A stretch of 33,493 bases of DNA from a virus. Of the stretch, positions 18,501 through 29,688 are shown piece by piece. How positions within the stretch are numbered: the first letter of the stretch is position 1; every line of letters starts with the position of its first letter. The stretch is from positions 1 through 33,493 of IMG/VR virus record IMGVR_UViG_3300035179_000042. One strand, 5' to 3'. The notes beneath the pieces are model-generated. The model saw only the letters and a program-made list of their open reading frames with translations. It was not told where the DNA came from and did not search any database. The translations under genes and the position numbers were made by a program.

Positions 18501-20510
18501 TTACAATTCCGGCAAATTATCCAGGAACCCTTTGCCCTCAGGCTTTTCTCTTACCATCAATTTTACCGGTTTTGCCCTTATCAATGCCGCCGGTATCGGC
18601 TTGCCGGCTTGTTCTTGTGGCGCTCGCATATATTGCACCCGCTTATAGAAGGCCGCTGCCGCCGCGTTGACCGCCGTGTCGAGAAAATGCACCTGCGCCC
18701 CGTGAGTGGCGGGCCGCCATTGCCAGGTTATTTGTCCATATCTGCCGCGAATCCTTGTCTTGCGCTCATTCGTGAATTCACGGAAATAATAGTCTGGAAT
18801 CTCGGCAAAATATTCCGTTGAGCCAGGAGTCCCGGCGGCGCGTGATGCCCAGTTATGAACCTTGTCCTTGAAAAATGAAACATCCAAAAGCGCAAGTTGT
18901 ATGCCACGAAACTTTGCTTTTCTTTCGGCTGTTATTTTTTCCAAACTCGATATAGTAAGCGGGCCCCCTCTTTGCTGTCTGCCAGGCAATCCTTTTGTCG
19001 GCATACAAAGCGGAAAATACCGCCGACAGAATTCATAGACCTCATCCGGCTTGAAACCGGAATCAATAAATAGTTGTATGACTGCAAGTTCCGGCTCTTT
19101 TCTGTCGGGATTCGCCCAGGGAAATGAGTGCAGCAGGATTTCGTCTTCAAGCTCCTGCCAGGAATAGACCGAGCCGCAGCTTATGACATAATTTCTCTCC
19201 CCATATCCGAATCCGCGAACTTCAAAGTCGATGCGAACTTGTCCGCGAATATCCTCGTGATAATCGGCACCGCCAACAAGTATCTTGCACCAGTCGGGAA
19301 CAGTTCCACGTGAGAATGTCCCAATGTTTTTTCTCAATCCTTCCGCCGCGACTTCGACCATTGTCTCGGCATACGGCTCGGCAAGAATGGCATTCATAAA
19401 ATCCAGAAGTTTGCCTACTGCCACTCCCTCCTCCGTATTGGCCTCGAACCATTCGGCCATAACCTCCGTCCACGATACCCAGGGACTTATCAGGGCATTG
19501 TATTGAAAGCCGATATGCCGTTTGTTGTAGTTGAATTCTCTTTTGATATTCATAATGCTGGCGTGCTCTTTTTTTGCCAGTTTCAGGATTTCATTTGCAA
19601 ACTTGTCTGGCAGCCATTCACCCCTTGCGACAAGTCCGTCCTTTTCGGTTTCGTCAATCTTGCCCCTGCAAAACTTACATTCATACCAAACACAACCGGG
19701 CGTGTTTTTGATTACATCGGGTTCCCGCAATTCCTTTGCAATTCTTAATCGCGGCTCCCTGCTATCCGGTTCATTGAAAATCCAGACCTGATATTCTCCG
19801 CAATGGGGGCAGGGAATGTAATAGTGATGCTTAGAGCTTCTTTTGAATTTTGTCCAGATGTTGCCATCTGTTGTGGTGGGCGTCGATGTTTGAACGATTT
19901 TCCTGTCCCAAAATGTTATCGTCCGCTTCTCCGCCAAGTCAATCGGGGACGCCTCCTTGCCAACAAATTGCGGATACTTGTCAATCTCATCCAGCCACAG
20001 ATAGCGGATGGGTTTCGTTCCCAGGCCGGCGGGCGAATTGGCTCCGGAAAAATACACTGTCATTCGTGAGAACCTGAACTCAAAACCTGTCAAGTCCCAT
20101 ATCCGTCCAGTGGTCTGTCTTTTCAGCTCCGGCGAGGCATCGACCATTGTTTTCAGGCGTCCCGCCATATATCCGCAATCCTCCTCGTGGCGGGGCATCA
20201 CCATCAGGCCGGGCCCGGGGTCTTCACAAATACTGTAACCCATTGTATTAAGCAGCGCCTCCGTTCCGCCCGATTGCGGGGACTTTACAATGGTGATTAT
20301 TTCTGTTTCAGGGTCGCAGAAGGAATCCATTATCCCCCGTAGATAGGGCGTCCGGCTTGTCCGCCACTGGCCCGGCTCCGCCGTTCCAGATTCCAGTATC
20401 CGATGCTTGTCCGCCCATTCAGATACTGTCAATTTCGCAGGCAGAGACCACGCCTGCCGCTCAGTATTTGTCCATATTTTTTTTTTCGTATTACGTTTTA
20501 ACTGAAGCAA
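18501..20510 (-). CDS. terL: terminase large subunit, GpA family
   Basis: The product is about 669 residues. It contains the GpA-type N-terminal LPAKLTVSEWADKHRILES, a P-loop-like KSPQSGGTEAL (about residue 80) and a Walker B-like LWLDEIDKYP (about residue 175). Later come DKFANEILKLAKKEH and a nuclease-domain-like region VGGADYHEDIRGQVRIDFEV. It packages DNA into proheads using ATP and cuts concatemers. The likely start is TTG at 20510, which has GAGG upstream; a TTG at 20522 is also open. No in-frame ATG exists near the N-terminus. It overlaps the end of the upstream 176-aa gene. Confidence 0.9.
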   Translation of the reverse strand: MLQLKRNTKKKIWTNTERQAWSLPAKLTVSEWADKHRILESGTAEPGQWRTSRTPYLRGIMDSFCDPETEIITIVKSPQSGGTEALLNTMGYSICEDPGPGLMVMPRHEEDCGYMAGRLKTMVDASPELKRQTTGRIWDLTGFEFRFSRMTVYFSGANSPAGLGTKPIRYLWLDEIDKYPQFVGKEASPIDLAEKRTITFWDRKIVQTSTPTTTDGNIWTKFKRSSKHHYYIPCPHCGEYQVWIFNEPDSREPRLRIAKELREPDVIKNTPGCVWYECKFCRGKIDETEKDGLVARGEWLPDKFANEILKLAKKEHASIMNIKREFNYNKRHIGFQYNALISPWVSWTEVMAEWFEANTEEGVAVGKLLDFMNAILAEPYAETMVEVAAEGLRKNIGTFSRGTVPDWCKILVGGADYHEDIRGQVRIDFEVRGFGYGERNYVISCGSVYSWQELEDEILLHSFPWANPDRKEPELAVIQLFIDSGFKPDEVYEFCRRYFPLCMPTKGLPGRQQRGGPLTISSLEKITAERKAKFRGIQLALLDVSFFKDKVHNWASRAAGTPGSTEYFAEIPDYYFREFTNERKTRIRGRYGQITWQWRPATHGAQVHFLDTAVNAAAAAFYKRVQYMRAPQEQAGKPIPAALIRAKPVKLMVREKPEGKGFLDNLPEL

Positions 20511-21021
20511 TAAACGCCTCAAGTAATTTTTGCTGGTCGAACTTGCCGGTAGCGCCTCTTATCGCAAGCTGTTTCGTGGTTTTATTTTCACTTACAACAA
20601 CAACCACGGATAATTGCGCCTGCCTTGCGAAAAAAAGCATTTTCATATCCTCTGGAATTTTTCCTATCTCAACTTGCGCCCCTCTCTTCAAGGCTTTTTT
20701 TGAGCAATGCCTTATCCGCTCCATATCTGCCGGCAGACTTTCGACAATTTCGTTTGAGTCAAGGCATTTTATCGCATACGCCTTTGGTATTCTCATCCAG
20801 ACAAGGCCGTAATCCCGCAAGGTTCGCCTTATGGCAGTTTGAAGGTTAGCATAGCCCTTTTCGCCGACCTTTGTATTCCTGCCGCAAATGCCTGTCAGCT
20901 CCTCATCGGTGACAATGTCCCCAATTTTACCCGTCTTTAGTTTTTCCATCAGTTTTGCGGATGCCGGTGACAGTCCGTGCTCAAACGGAAACGCTTTGCT
21001 TTCTGTTTTTTCATCGTTCAT
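20491..21021 (-). CDS. hypothetical DNA-associated protein
   Basis: The product has 176 residues from an ATG with GAAGGGA upstream. Residues 10-80 look like a winged-helix or HTH segment (GLSPASAKLMEKLKTGKIG, VTDEELTGICGRN, YANLQTAIRRTLRDYGLVW). The rest is mixed alpha/beta (MKMLFFARQAQLSVVVVVSE). It lies between the terminase large subunit and the first AACNN array, which precedes its start by about 30 bases. It may be a DNA-binding accessory of packaging. I do not recognise a named family. Confidence 0.6.
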   Translation of the reverse strand: MNDEKTESKAFPFEHGLSPASAKLMEKLKTGKIGDIVTDEELTGICGRNTKVGEKGYANLQTAIRRTLRDYGLVWMRIPKAYAIKCLDSNEIVESLPADMERIRHCSKKALKRGAQVEIGKIPEDMKMLFFARQAQLSVVVVVSENKTTKQLAIRGATGKFDQQKLLEAFIASVKT

Positions 21022-21049: not shown

Positions 21050-21133
21050 AACTTAACATCAAAAACTTAACTTAACTTAACTTAACAAAACTAAATCTAA
21101 CCAAACGCAACGCAACCAAACGTAACGCAACGC
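21050..21133 (+). repeat. AACNN pentamer array A
   Basis: Two pentamers (AACTT, AACAT), the four-base break CAAA, and then 14 in-phase pentamers from 21064 to 21133. The variable pairs are TT, TT, TT, TT, AA, TA, (AATCT, the only exception), CA, GC, GC, CA, GT, GC and GC. It sits in the leader of the 176-aa gene upstream of the terminase large subunit gene. On the transcribed strand the fixed triplet reads GUU. It is followed by ATTTATTTCG. Confidence 0.9.
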
Positions 21134-21151
21134 ATTTATTTCGTTTGCCTC

Positions 21152-21210
21152 AACATCAAAAACTTAACTTAACTCAACATAACGCAACCGAACCAAACCT
21201 AACGTAACGG
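21152..21210 (+). repeat. AACNN pentamer array B
   Basis: The AACATCAAA lead is identical to that of array A, followed by ten in-phase AACNN pentamers from 21161 to 21210. The variable pairs are TT, TT, TC, AT, GC, CG, CA, CT, GT and GG. It is followed by AATATATTTATTTC, again like array A. It lies just downstream of the 188-aa gene's stop. Arrays A and B therefore look like a tandem duplication of lead, array and tail. Confidence 0.9.
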
Positions 21211-21217
21211 AATATAT

Positions 21218-21784
21218 TTATTTCATTACCTTAAAGTTCACAATTTCAAACTTGCCGAATAACCCATTATTGCCGACCCTTAATGTCAACAATCCCACCA
21301 GTTGTCCTGCGTGGACAAGATATTCTTTGACCTTGTCCGGCTTGTCCTCCAAAAGCGGGTCTGTCAAAAGTATCGTAGTCGTCCCCTGCCATTCGGGAAG
21401 CAGAGGAAAATTTCGCCAGACTCTTGGTCCATTAGGAGTTTTAGGATTAGAGGGAAGAAATAGCCGTAATTTTTGTATCTTATTCTTTGCCTCTTTACCC
21501 AGATAAATCGGTTCTGCCACAATAACTCCGGCCATAAAATGTTTTGTATAAGTTGCCTTTGCTTTTCCTGGAACTGATTGCTGAAGATACTTCGCCGAAT
21601 TTACAAGAGCTTTCTTCAAAGCAAAGGACGGAATGAATACTCCATTTTTGTCTTCGTGCAACTTCTGCATCCACGTCCGCTCCTCAAACGCCTCCCCTGA
21701 TTCGCCAGTAATTTTTTCCTCAAAAACCGGTTGGCCAAAAACCAATCCTGTCAAACTTTTCAATTCCACTATTACAGTTTTCAT
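21218..21784 (-). CDS. unrecognised 188-aa protein between pentamer arrays
   Basis: The product starts MKTVIVELKSLTGLVFGQPV, with AAAGGAAG upstream. It contains AFEERTWMQKLHEDKNGVFI, then IPSFALKKALVNSAKYLQQ, a KATYTKHFMAGVIV strand region, a central part with LPSNPKTPNGPRVWRNFP, and C-terminal LVGLLTLRVGNNGLFGKFEI. The pattern FIP-S-x-K-xx-L near the first third and a Gly-rich final strand faintly recall Cas7/RAMP-type RNA-binding proteins, but I cannot confirm this. Its leader is array C, and arrays A and B follow its stop, so it is a candidate binder of those arrays. Phage homologues of this form exist as uncharacterised proteins. Function is not known. Confidence 0.6.
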   Translation of the reverse strand: MKTVIVELKSLTGLVFGQPVFEEKITGESGEAFEERTWMQKLHEDKNGVFIPSFALKKALVNSAKYLQQSVPGKAKATYTKHFMAGVIVAEPIYLGKEAKNKIQKLRLFLPSNPKTPNGPRVWRNFPLLPEWQGTTTILLTDPLLEDKPDKVKEYLVHAGQLVGLLTLRVGNNGLFGKFEIVNFKVMK

Positions 21785-21805
21785 AACACACTTCCTTTCT
21801 CTAAA

Positions 21806-21890
21806 AACTTAACTTAACGCAACGTAACGTAACTTAACCCAACTCAACGTAACTAAACGGAACAAAACTGAACTCAACATAACATAACAT
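21806..21890 (+). repeat. AACNN pentamer array C, 17 perfect units
   Basis: Seventeen consecutive pentamers, each beginning AAC, run without a phase break. The variable pairs are TT, TT, GC, GT, GT, TT, CC, TC, GT, TA, GG, AA, TG, TC, AT, AT and AT. It fills almost the whole 112-base gap between the small-terminase stop (21897) and the 188-aa gene start (21784). It would lie in the 5' leader of that gene's message, where it reads GUU with two-base spacers. Confidence 0.92.
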
Positions 21891-21896
21891 AGATTT

Positions 21897-22523
21897 TCAA
21901 TTTCTCGCAAACTCTTCGATTATTTCCCTTATTTTTATATCTATTGCCTTCTGAATGCCACTCGGATTGCCCCCCAGTTTCGACAGTCGCAATGCCAGAT
22001 TCCGGCCAAGCCCACGAAACGCCCGCTTCACCGCTAATATGCGGGCAACCCGCCCCGCCTCAATTTCGGCGCTTTCGATAAGTTCACCCCGCTTTATCCG
22101 CAATTCGATATTCGCAAGTTCCGATTTTGTCTCCTTTAGGTCGGCCTCGGCTTTTAGAAATCGCTGTCTGTTTTCATTCGGCGTCCGGCTTTCATTGTTT
22201 TTGAAAAAATCCAGAATGCCTTTGATGTAATATCCTTCCGCCGAAGTCGGCATACCATTGCTGAGCCATCGGCGAATTGTGCGCGTATTGACATCGGCAT
22301 AATCAGCCGCCTGCCGTTGGGTCTTGAGGAGCTGCTCAACATTAACATCGGCCTGCTTCGGCGATGCTACTTTTCCGTCAAACTCGGCAAGCTCGTCTAT
22401 CTCCGATTTTGACAATGATTTGCCCACTTTCATTTTTTCTATTAAGTGGGCATATCGCTGCCTCTGTGTGATTCCGACGACATCAACTTTGGGTTTTGGC
22501 TTATCAGGTTTTTGCTTTTTCAT
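21897..22523 (-). CDS. terminase small subunit, Nu1-like
   Basis: The product has 208 residues. The N-terminal 65 residues are basic and charged. Residues about 60-100 form a winged-helix/HTH (VEQLLKTQRQAADYADVNTRTIRRWL, then GMPTSAEGYYIKGILDFF). Then comes a long helical region (ADLKETKSELANIELRIKRGEL) with ESAEIEAGRVARILAVKRAFRG and a C-terminal helix. This is the organisation of the lambda Nu1 family: DNA recognition at the N-terminus and subunit contact at the C-terminus. It is separated from the large subunit gene by two genes and three repeat arrays, which is unusual. Confidence 0.75.
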   Translation of the reverse strand: MKKQKPDKPKPKVDVVGITQRQRYAHLIEKMKVGKSLSKSEIDELAEFDGKVASPKQADVNVEQLLKTQRQAADYADVNTRTIRRWLSNGMPTSAEGYYIKGILDFFKNNESRTPNENRQRFLKAEADLKETKSELANIELRIKRGELIESAEIEAGRVARILAVKRAFRGLGRNLALRLSKLGGNPSGIQKAIDIKIREIIEEFARN

Positions 22524-28735: not shown

Positions 28736-29185
28736 ATGAAAACAAAAGGAATGTTCTGGCACGTTCACCACGATAAGCTGGTAGAGTATTGCCATAATTA
28801 TAAAGAGCGGGCGGATTATATCAGAAATAAAAAACCGAAAAACGAAATTGGAATCCGCCTGCGATTATTCAAACCGGTCAGAGGCAAATTACCTGTTAAG
28901 TTTATCTTGGCGTTGGAGGCCTATGACAAGGCGTTGGAGTCCCGTGAGAAGGCGTGGGAGCCCTGTGAGAAGGCGTGGGCGGGGGAGGCCTGTGAGAAGG
29001 CGGGGGAGACCTGTGAGAAGGCGTGGGAGGCGTTGGAGGCCCATGAGAAGGCGTGGGAGGCCTGTGAGGAGGCGTGGGAGTCCCATGAGAAGGCGTGGGA
29101 GGCCTGCAAAGACAAAATTGAAGCACTACATAAAAAAGAATGTCCCAATTGTTCGTGGGACGGCACGAGAATTAGATTTGAATAG
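28736..29185 (+). CDS. heptad-repeat protein, paralogue 1
   Basis: The product has 149 residues. Residues 1-58 form a conserved head (MKTKGMFWHVHHDKLVEYCH … EIGIRLRLFKPVRGKLPV). Residues about 59-125 hold a chain of units of about seven residues of the form A-W-E-A-x-E-K (such as AWEPCEK, AGETCEK, AWEACEE, AWESHEK), with two longer units. This predicts a long helix or coiled coil. The end is a zinc-knuckle-like HKKECPNCSWDGTRIRF. The neighbouring gene shares head and tail but has a different repeat part. The function is unknown; variable length and sequence suggest fast change. Confidence 0.65.
   Translation: MKTKGMFWHVHHDKLVEYCHNYKERADYIRNKKPKNEIGIRLRLFKPVRGKLPVKFILALEAYDKALESREKAWEPCEKAWAGEACEKAGETCEKAWEALEAHEKAWEACEEAWESHEKAWEACKDKIEALHKKECPNCSWDGTRIRFE
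28908..29106 (+). repeat. degenerate tandem repeat, about 21 bases
   Basis: Successive units share gaggcctgtgagaaggcgtg-type sequence with one to several changes each, coding for the heptad chain of paralogue 1. The units are in frame, so changes in copy number would not shift the reading frame. Confidence 0.7.
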
Positions 29186-29250
29186 CCGTTAGAGTGGGAC
29201 GATGAATTGAGCAGGCCATATATAGTAGAGAATTGAAAGGGGAATGGCAA

Positions 29251-29688
29251 ATGAAAACAAAAGGAATGTTCTGGCACGTTCACGACAAAAAGTTGGTAGA
29301 GTATTGCCATAGTTATAAAGAGCGGGCGAATTATATCAGAAGGGAAAAACCGAAAAAGGAGATTGGAATCCGCCTGCGATTATTCAAACCGGTCAGAGGC
29401 AAACTACCTGTTGGGTGGGTCAGGGCATGGGAGGCCTATGACAAAGCGTGGGAGGCCTATGACAAGGCGTGGAAGGTATATGAGAAGGCACGGAAGCTAT
29501 ATCTGGACGAGGCAGGGAAGGCGTGGGACGAGGCAGGGAAGGCGTGGGGCGAGGCAGGGAAGGCGTGGGACGAGGCGTGGGAGGCGTTTGTCAACGTAGA
29601 GAAGGTGTGCAAAGACAAGGTTGAAGCACTACATAAAAAGGAATGTCCTAATTGTCCGTGGGACGGCAACGAAATTAGATTCAATTAG
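29251..29688 (+). CDS. heptad-repeat protein, paralogue 2
   Basis: From an ATG at 29251 with AAAGGGG upstream, the product is 145 residues; an in-frame TTG at 29233 is less likely. The head (MKTKGMFWHVHDKKLVEYCH … EIGIRLRLFKPVRGKLPV) and the end (HKKECPNCPWDGNEIRF) are nearly identical to paralogue 1. The middle holds different units, AWEAYDK twice, then AWKVYEK, and a Gly-containing set (EAGKAWDEAGKAWGEAGKAW). This is a recent tandem gene duplication with divergence focused in the repeat. No known family was identified. Confidence 0.65.
   Translation: MKTKGMFWHVHDKKLVEYCHSYKERANYIRREKPKKEIGIRLRLFKPVRGKLPVGWVRAWEAYDKAWEAYDKAWKVYEKARKLYLDEAGKAWDEAGKAWGEAGKAWDEAWEAFVNVEKVCKDKVEALHKKECPNCPWDGNEIRFN

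Follow-up and report, generated by a model that had tools for sequence, protein, structure and literature searches.

A phage locus with GUU-based pentamer arrays and a RAMP-fold protein, a probable VIPR system with a variant scaffold

The DNA analyzed here, referred to below as the window, is a viral record of the IMG/VR collection comprising 33,493 bases, and its gene content (including a GpA-type large terminase, a portal, a head protease and a Mu-like major head gene) indicates that the locus under study is phage-borne. An earlier note, made from the letters alone, described three in-phase arrays of an AACNN pentamer, in which AAC is fixed and two bases are free. Direct reading confirms both the unit numbers (17, 10 and 14) and the single exception, an AAT on the plus strand within the 14-unit array. 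The arrays raise the question of what reads a triplet repeated every five nucleotides, and whether the two bases in between are spacers or carry information.

Arrays and gene neighborhood

All genes of the region are encoded on the minus strand, hence the transcripts read GUU followed by two free bases, as the earlier note had proposed (Table 1, in which the names anticipate the assignment made below). The placement of the arrays between the terminase genes given in that note stands in part: the 17-unit array separates the small terminase gene from the gene of a 188-aa protein, but the other two are located between the latter and the gene of a 176-aa protein. The first array ends just upstream of the ribosome-binding site of the 188-aa gene and runs straight into it. 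The shared lead AACATCAAA and the shared tail ATTTATTTC that had been pointed out are both present. The former corresponds to the element UUUGAUGUU, which is common to vrRNA-2 and vrRNA-3 only.

Table 1. Coordinates of the arrays, associated elements and genes of the locus.
Feature	Position	Strand	Description	Free pairs
vrRNA-1 repeat tract	21806-21890	-	17 GUU/NN units, no exception	AT AT AT GA CA TT CC TA AC GA GG AA AC AC GC AA AA (RNA order)
vrRNA-2 repeat tract	21161-21210	-	10 units; begins 7 nt past the vipr stop codon	CC AC AG TG CG GC AT GA AA AA
vrRNA-3 repeat tract	21064-21133	-	14 units; 21094-21098 reads AUU instead of GUU	GC GC AC TG GC GC TG AG TA TT AA AA AA AA
UUUGAUGUU element	21152-21160	-	vrRNA-2 3' end; candidate tail or handle	
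UUUGAUGUU element, second copy	21055-21063	-	vrRNA-3 3' end; retained in the relatives L190 and L191	
vipr	21218-21784	-	188-aa RAMP-fold protein of the phrog_4652-type family; homolog of SUSP1 Vipr (PDB 36pp)	
vap1-like gene	20491-21021	-	176 aa; family of the post-vipr gene in Felixounavirus VpaE1 and Pseudomonas phage LESphi2	
Small terminase subunit	21897-22523	-	phrog_57, E 1.5e-14; not common to distant VIPR loci	
Large terminase subunit, GpA type	18501-20522	-	not common to most distant VIPR loci	

The longest in-phase AACNN run in the window has 17 units, whereas runs in 200 order-4 Markov copies do not exceed three; five successive AACNN units are matched 24 times in the window and not once in 100 dinucleotide shuffles. 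Other triplets form runs of at most four units, except for GTT, the reverse complement of AAC. The two longest unbroken arrays contain 9-10 different free pairs each.

Around the locus, neither a CRISPR array of direct repeats nor cas genes were found, the neighbors being terminase and small phage genes; none of the proteins beside the arrays matched the TRAP family in Pfam, and the whole window gave no match to Rfam at the gathering threshold. Elsewhere in the window (28736-29688), adjacent genes for proteins of 149 and 151 aa are similar copies, each with low-complexity repeats rich in K, A, W and E.

The protein partner of the arrays

A scan of viral contigs for at least nine in-phase AACNN units, with simple repeats removed, yielded 49 spacer-diverse loci, which frequently contain several arrays each. 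A relative of the 188-aa protein is encoded near the array in 36 of them; in a first comparison the large and small terminase genes and the 176-aa gene were common to few. The remaining 13 loci show no vipr-type gene in the stretch examined, and include some contig ends and some repeats inside reading frames. Conversely, 70 of 80 contigs fetched by the Vipr protein alone have a nearby array (within 2.5-3 kb) with a period of five and an invariant triplet, and no such window was found in shuffled sequence. The common partner of the arrays is thus the 188-aa protein, in very strong association, and the terminase genes, which the earlier note had put forward alongside the 188-aa gene for a co-occurrence test, are bystanders. 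Where the flanking genes are co-directional, 57 arrays run antisense to them and 5 run in sense, which again implies transcripts reading GUU.

Among 84,980 cellular genomes, a pattern excluding perfect repeats gave 19 matches, all of low complexity, and the same pattern matched 28 viral contigs. A chromosomal planctomycete repeat was considered and rejected, the matches in AlinenLipids_bin-9348 being low-complexity AACGG/AACCA/AACGA runs, often inside reading frames. The planctomycete genome G001 (L133, L141, L143, L144, L148, and L149) contains many short alternating AACGG/AACCA/AACGA repeats, which lie on either strand and in several cases within reading frames; these are not VIPR arrays.

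Locus L016 (7960-11098) has four GTT-type arrays and no recognizable vipr in the 20 kb examined of a 20.7-kb contig; as three of these arrays lie at the contig end, the missing gene could have fallen beyond that end, or these could be orphan arrays. In the Vipr locus L121 (1313-2051) the arrays read AAC in the vipr sense, that is, the reverse complement of the GTT found in the window.

Taken by itself, the 188-aa protein has no Pfam match and a weak match to phrog_4652, a family of unknown function that is matched by 27 of the 28 members of its family A1. The AlphaFold model of the family (pLDDT 95.9, pTM 0.89) is matched best in the PDB by Csm3/Cas7, which form the backbone of CRISPR complexes of types III and VII (E 3.6e-7, Z 13.0), and the family has a conserved C-terminal glycine-rich loop and the single-RRM-core RAMP feature of VIPR. 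Compared with PDB chains, the A1 profile matches Vipr of phage SUSP1 (36pp) with an E-value of 1.1e-36, and the window-type sub-profile A2 by itself matches the same chain at 5.4e-5. Homologs occur in isolate phages, including Felixounavirus (SUSP1 among them) and phages of Gordonia, Mycobacterium, and Pseudomonas, all listed as hypothetical proteins; in those inspected, degenerate pentamer arrays adjoin the vipr homolog and the fixed triplet is GGY. In a Mycobacterium phage and a Gordonia phage (L188, 2099-2470, and L187, 3083-3418), clear GGC/GGY VIPR arrays lie beside phrog_4652 genes, and these phages are annotated solely with hypothetical proteins. A search for a close source of the GTT-type vipr in planctomycetes or Bacteroidota found none.

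Profile comparison relates the 176-aa protein to Felixounavirus Vap1 with a probability of 89% (E 2e-6). After iteration its family is found at 72 of 89 Vipr loci, including the Felixounavirus Vap1, although the later E-values are circular because the iteration takes in those members. Its model bears a weak resemblance to winged-helix regulators (E 0.025), which would be in line with the 'predicted DNA binding' that the preprint cited below gives for the vap genes of type II.

A 2026 preprint (PMC13142463) describes VIPR as a phage-borne system composed of the RAMP protein Vipr, vrRNAs and a vap gene. The vrRNAs consist of 9-16 pentamers in which GGY is fixed and NN hypervariable. In SUSP1, pairing with DNA was shown to take place through the NN letters, one base being skipped at every step; transcription is repressed by the complex, which is active against phages in competition, and some phages direct vrRNAs at other VIPR systems (PMC13142463). 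The system is presented as non-contiguous RNA-guided DNA recognition, proposed to be older than CRISPR, and its type II is the Vap1-bearing kind (PMC13142463). The locus of the window almost certainly belongs to this lineage, and its identification as a phage VIPR of the Vap1-bearing kind with a GUU scaffold in place of GGY is very probable. The fixed triplet of the locus is not literally GGY, the three arrays having GUU throughout as their scaffold apart from the exception mentioned. The main text of the preprint gives the scaffold as GGY "or a related consensus" and does not name GUU; since a related consensus is permitted, GUU marks a variant and not an exclusion from VIPR. The statement of the earlier note that no phage family of this form was known has been overtaken by the preprint. 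A structured and invariable 3' tail as on the SUSP1 vrRNA is not evident at the three tracts of the window, and UUUGAUGUU has no clear structure.

Putative guide letters and scaffold triplets

The free pairs were compared with those of two close relatives, L190 (L132) and L191 (L021). DNA identity between the window and these phages is 0.97-0.98 for the small terminase gene, 0.985-0.989 for the vap1-like gene and 0.983-0.989 for the large terminase gene, and about 132 nt near the start of the small terminase gene of the window are missing from both. Against these neighbors of 97-99% identity, vipr reaches 0.86, with one 63-nt bin at 0.56, a pattern suggesting that the middle of the gene has been exchanged or is under diversifying selection. 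GTT is retained as the array triplet, and the free letters are identical at 41 of 142 positions (29%, close to chance). The proposal of the earlier note that the triplet is held by selection is supported. Unit numbers differ by whole 5-nt steps, and one array is missing in L190. Judged from these sequences, replacement of the free pairs with retention of GTT is what would be expected of guide cassettes and would not be needed by a binding platform. The free pairs, previously regarded as two-base spacers, would by homology be guides, and it is likely, by analogy with SUSP1, that they work with a one-base skip. Guides have then been replaced within near-identical phages, which bears on how guides may be acquired without known acquisition genes.

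No target was found for these guides in the collections searched. Exact searches with a 1-nt skip over 18-20 guide letters found none in viral contigs for guides 1, 2 and 3 of the window or for one guide each of L067 and L063; guide 1 had no target in 294 planctomycete genomes with up to three mismatches, and all 188 guides, compared with the DNA of the sampled loci at skips of 0-3, gave no skip-1 excess over shuffled guides. These negatives weigh little because the databases contain few competing phages of the host of this phage. The large terminase was also used to look for the host; its best planctomycete match has 37% identity, which is no decisive indication.

The fixed triplet itself varies. 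Among 70 array-bearing Vipr loci it is GGC/GGY in 26, GAC in 15, CGC in 12, GTT in 6, CTC in 4, GTC in 3, AGT in 2, and ATT and AGC in 1 each, these calls being automatic and a few loci mixing two triplets or scoring weakly. Weak calls apart, the triplet ends in a pyrimidine. A quickly built tree of 99 Viprs, with weak deep branches and flagged long branches, requires 37 triplet changes against 60 with shuffled labels; the triplet is thus clustered on the tree and yet switches often. For GTT, at least three changes are forced by supported branches.

Covariation with Vipr residues was examined in row pairs on non-overlapping tree paths within the window-type clade. Whether the first base is G or C tracks residue 110 (V as against L, Y or A; 5.9 of 6 pairs concordant) and residue 126 (F as against Y; 5 of 6), with no pair in the opposite direction, the next-best column reaching 2.4 concordant pairs. 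For a middle G as opposed to another base, the associated residues are R167 (6.9 to 0 among 15 pairs), S15 (5.5 to 0) and E106 (5.0 to 0.3); wherever the column is filled, every middle-G system of the clade has S15 and R167. Vipr of the window has V15, L106, L110, F126, and T167. The rule is not strict, since R167 accompanies GTT in L130, L198, and L251 and the window combines L110 with a G-first triplet, and it is limited to the window-type clade because the Felixounavirus-type clade has D/E at the equivalent of 167. Many of the pairs lie on weakly supported branches, and the starred branches leave one first-base pair; the covariation is a lead for mutational work and not proof.

A tentative reading, with a little less than an even chance of being right, is that scaffold triplets are interchangeable dialects (GGY, GUU, GAC, CGC, CUC, and others) which have switched repeatedly through a few residues, with whole arrays changing alongside; in the window-type clade these residues would be 110 and 126 where the first base is concerned and 15, 106, and 167 where the middle base is. 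Such switching could insulate the guides of a phage from the Vipr of its rivals, and the GUU of the window could be one orthogonal dialect. From the wider survey, the scaffold seems to coevolve with the protein and not to be fixed, which raises a testable question, namely which residues read the scaffold and whether mutually blind (orthogonal) VIPR systems exist or can be engineered. The VIPR system itself is already known; the scaffold dialect and its repeated change linked to protein residues may be new.

Proposed mechanism, alternative readings and relation to known systems

In the proposed mechanism, the minus strand would give rise to three vrRNAs, of which one precedes vipr and the other two separate it from the vap1-like gene. 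By analogy with SUSP1, Vipr would oligomerize on each of them as a ribonucleoprotein, one subunit per five nucleotides, gripping the GUU triplets; the free dinucleotides would pair with DNA in the gapped register NNxNNxNN, one base being skipped per step, and the bound complex would silence a competing phage or satellite by blocking its transcription.

TRAP targets have the same five-nucleotide spacing, and array 1 ends beside the vipr ribosome-binding site, the arrays being situated in operon leaders. These facts would suit an autoregulatory circuit of the TRAP type, raised by the earlier note, in which the 188-aa protein binds GUU arrays in the leaders of its own operon and affects translation or termination, the free pairs being uninformative. 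What survives of that idea is the reading of triplets, two bases apart, by a repeated protein. A regulator of this type is nevertheless very improbable: the fold is that of a RAMP and not of TRAP, arrays of varying number also lie downstream of vipr, the free pairs have been wholly replaced beside near-identical neighbors, which exceeds mere loss of constraint at 2% divergence, and the characterized homolog uses NN as guide (PMC13142463). The position between terminase genes and the spacing of half a helical turn could also indicate a site bound as duplex DNA (packaging, origin or partition iterons), and a packaging, cos-like or origin site had been suggested earlier. That suggestion is not sustained, as the arrays of other phages adjoin vipr and not terminase genes, their orientation tracks transcription and the triplet covaries with the RAMP protein, so that a DNA-level site is very hard to credit.

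Since some phages of the preprint direct vrRNAs at other VIPR systems (PMC13142463) and scaffold triplets differ between relatives, the arrays might be decoys, that is, RNA mimics occupying the Vipr of a competing phage; this is extremely doubtful for a locus with intact vipr and vap1-like genes of its own, located between the arrays, and with a triplet fitting the local protein clade. Microsatellite slippage would account for the whole 5-nt steps in unit number between relatives, but with up to 10 kinds of free pairs per array, AAC invariant and nothing comparable in cellular genomes, its probability is next to nil, and spacer diversity rules it out, as the earlier note had argued.

The preferred reading is a VIPR locus whose scaffold departs from the published GGY. 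It shares several traits with SUSP1 VIPR (PMC13142463; PDB 36pp): the RAMP proteins are homologous, vipr is flanked on both sides by vrRNAs of some 10-17 pentamers, each made up of a fixed triplet and a free pair, the vap1-type genes are related, and the system is phage-borne. It differs in its GUU scaffold, its distantly similar Vipr and its location between terminase genes, and a structured 3' tail is not evident. The backbone subunits Csm3/Cas7 (CRISPR types III and VII) share the RAMP fold and, by homology in the case of this locus, an arrangement in which subunits repeat along a guide RNA and pairing is interrupted at regular intervals. In contrast to them, the locus has a single RRM-size protein, a 5-nt instead of a 6-nt period, a presumably non-contiguous guide, and neither a CRISPR array nor nearby Cas genes. 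TRAP, the trp RNA-binding attenuation protein of Bacillus, is likewise a protein reading triplets with two-base spacers, but it has a different fold with no sequence relation found, and its spacers carry no target information.
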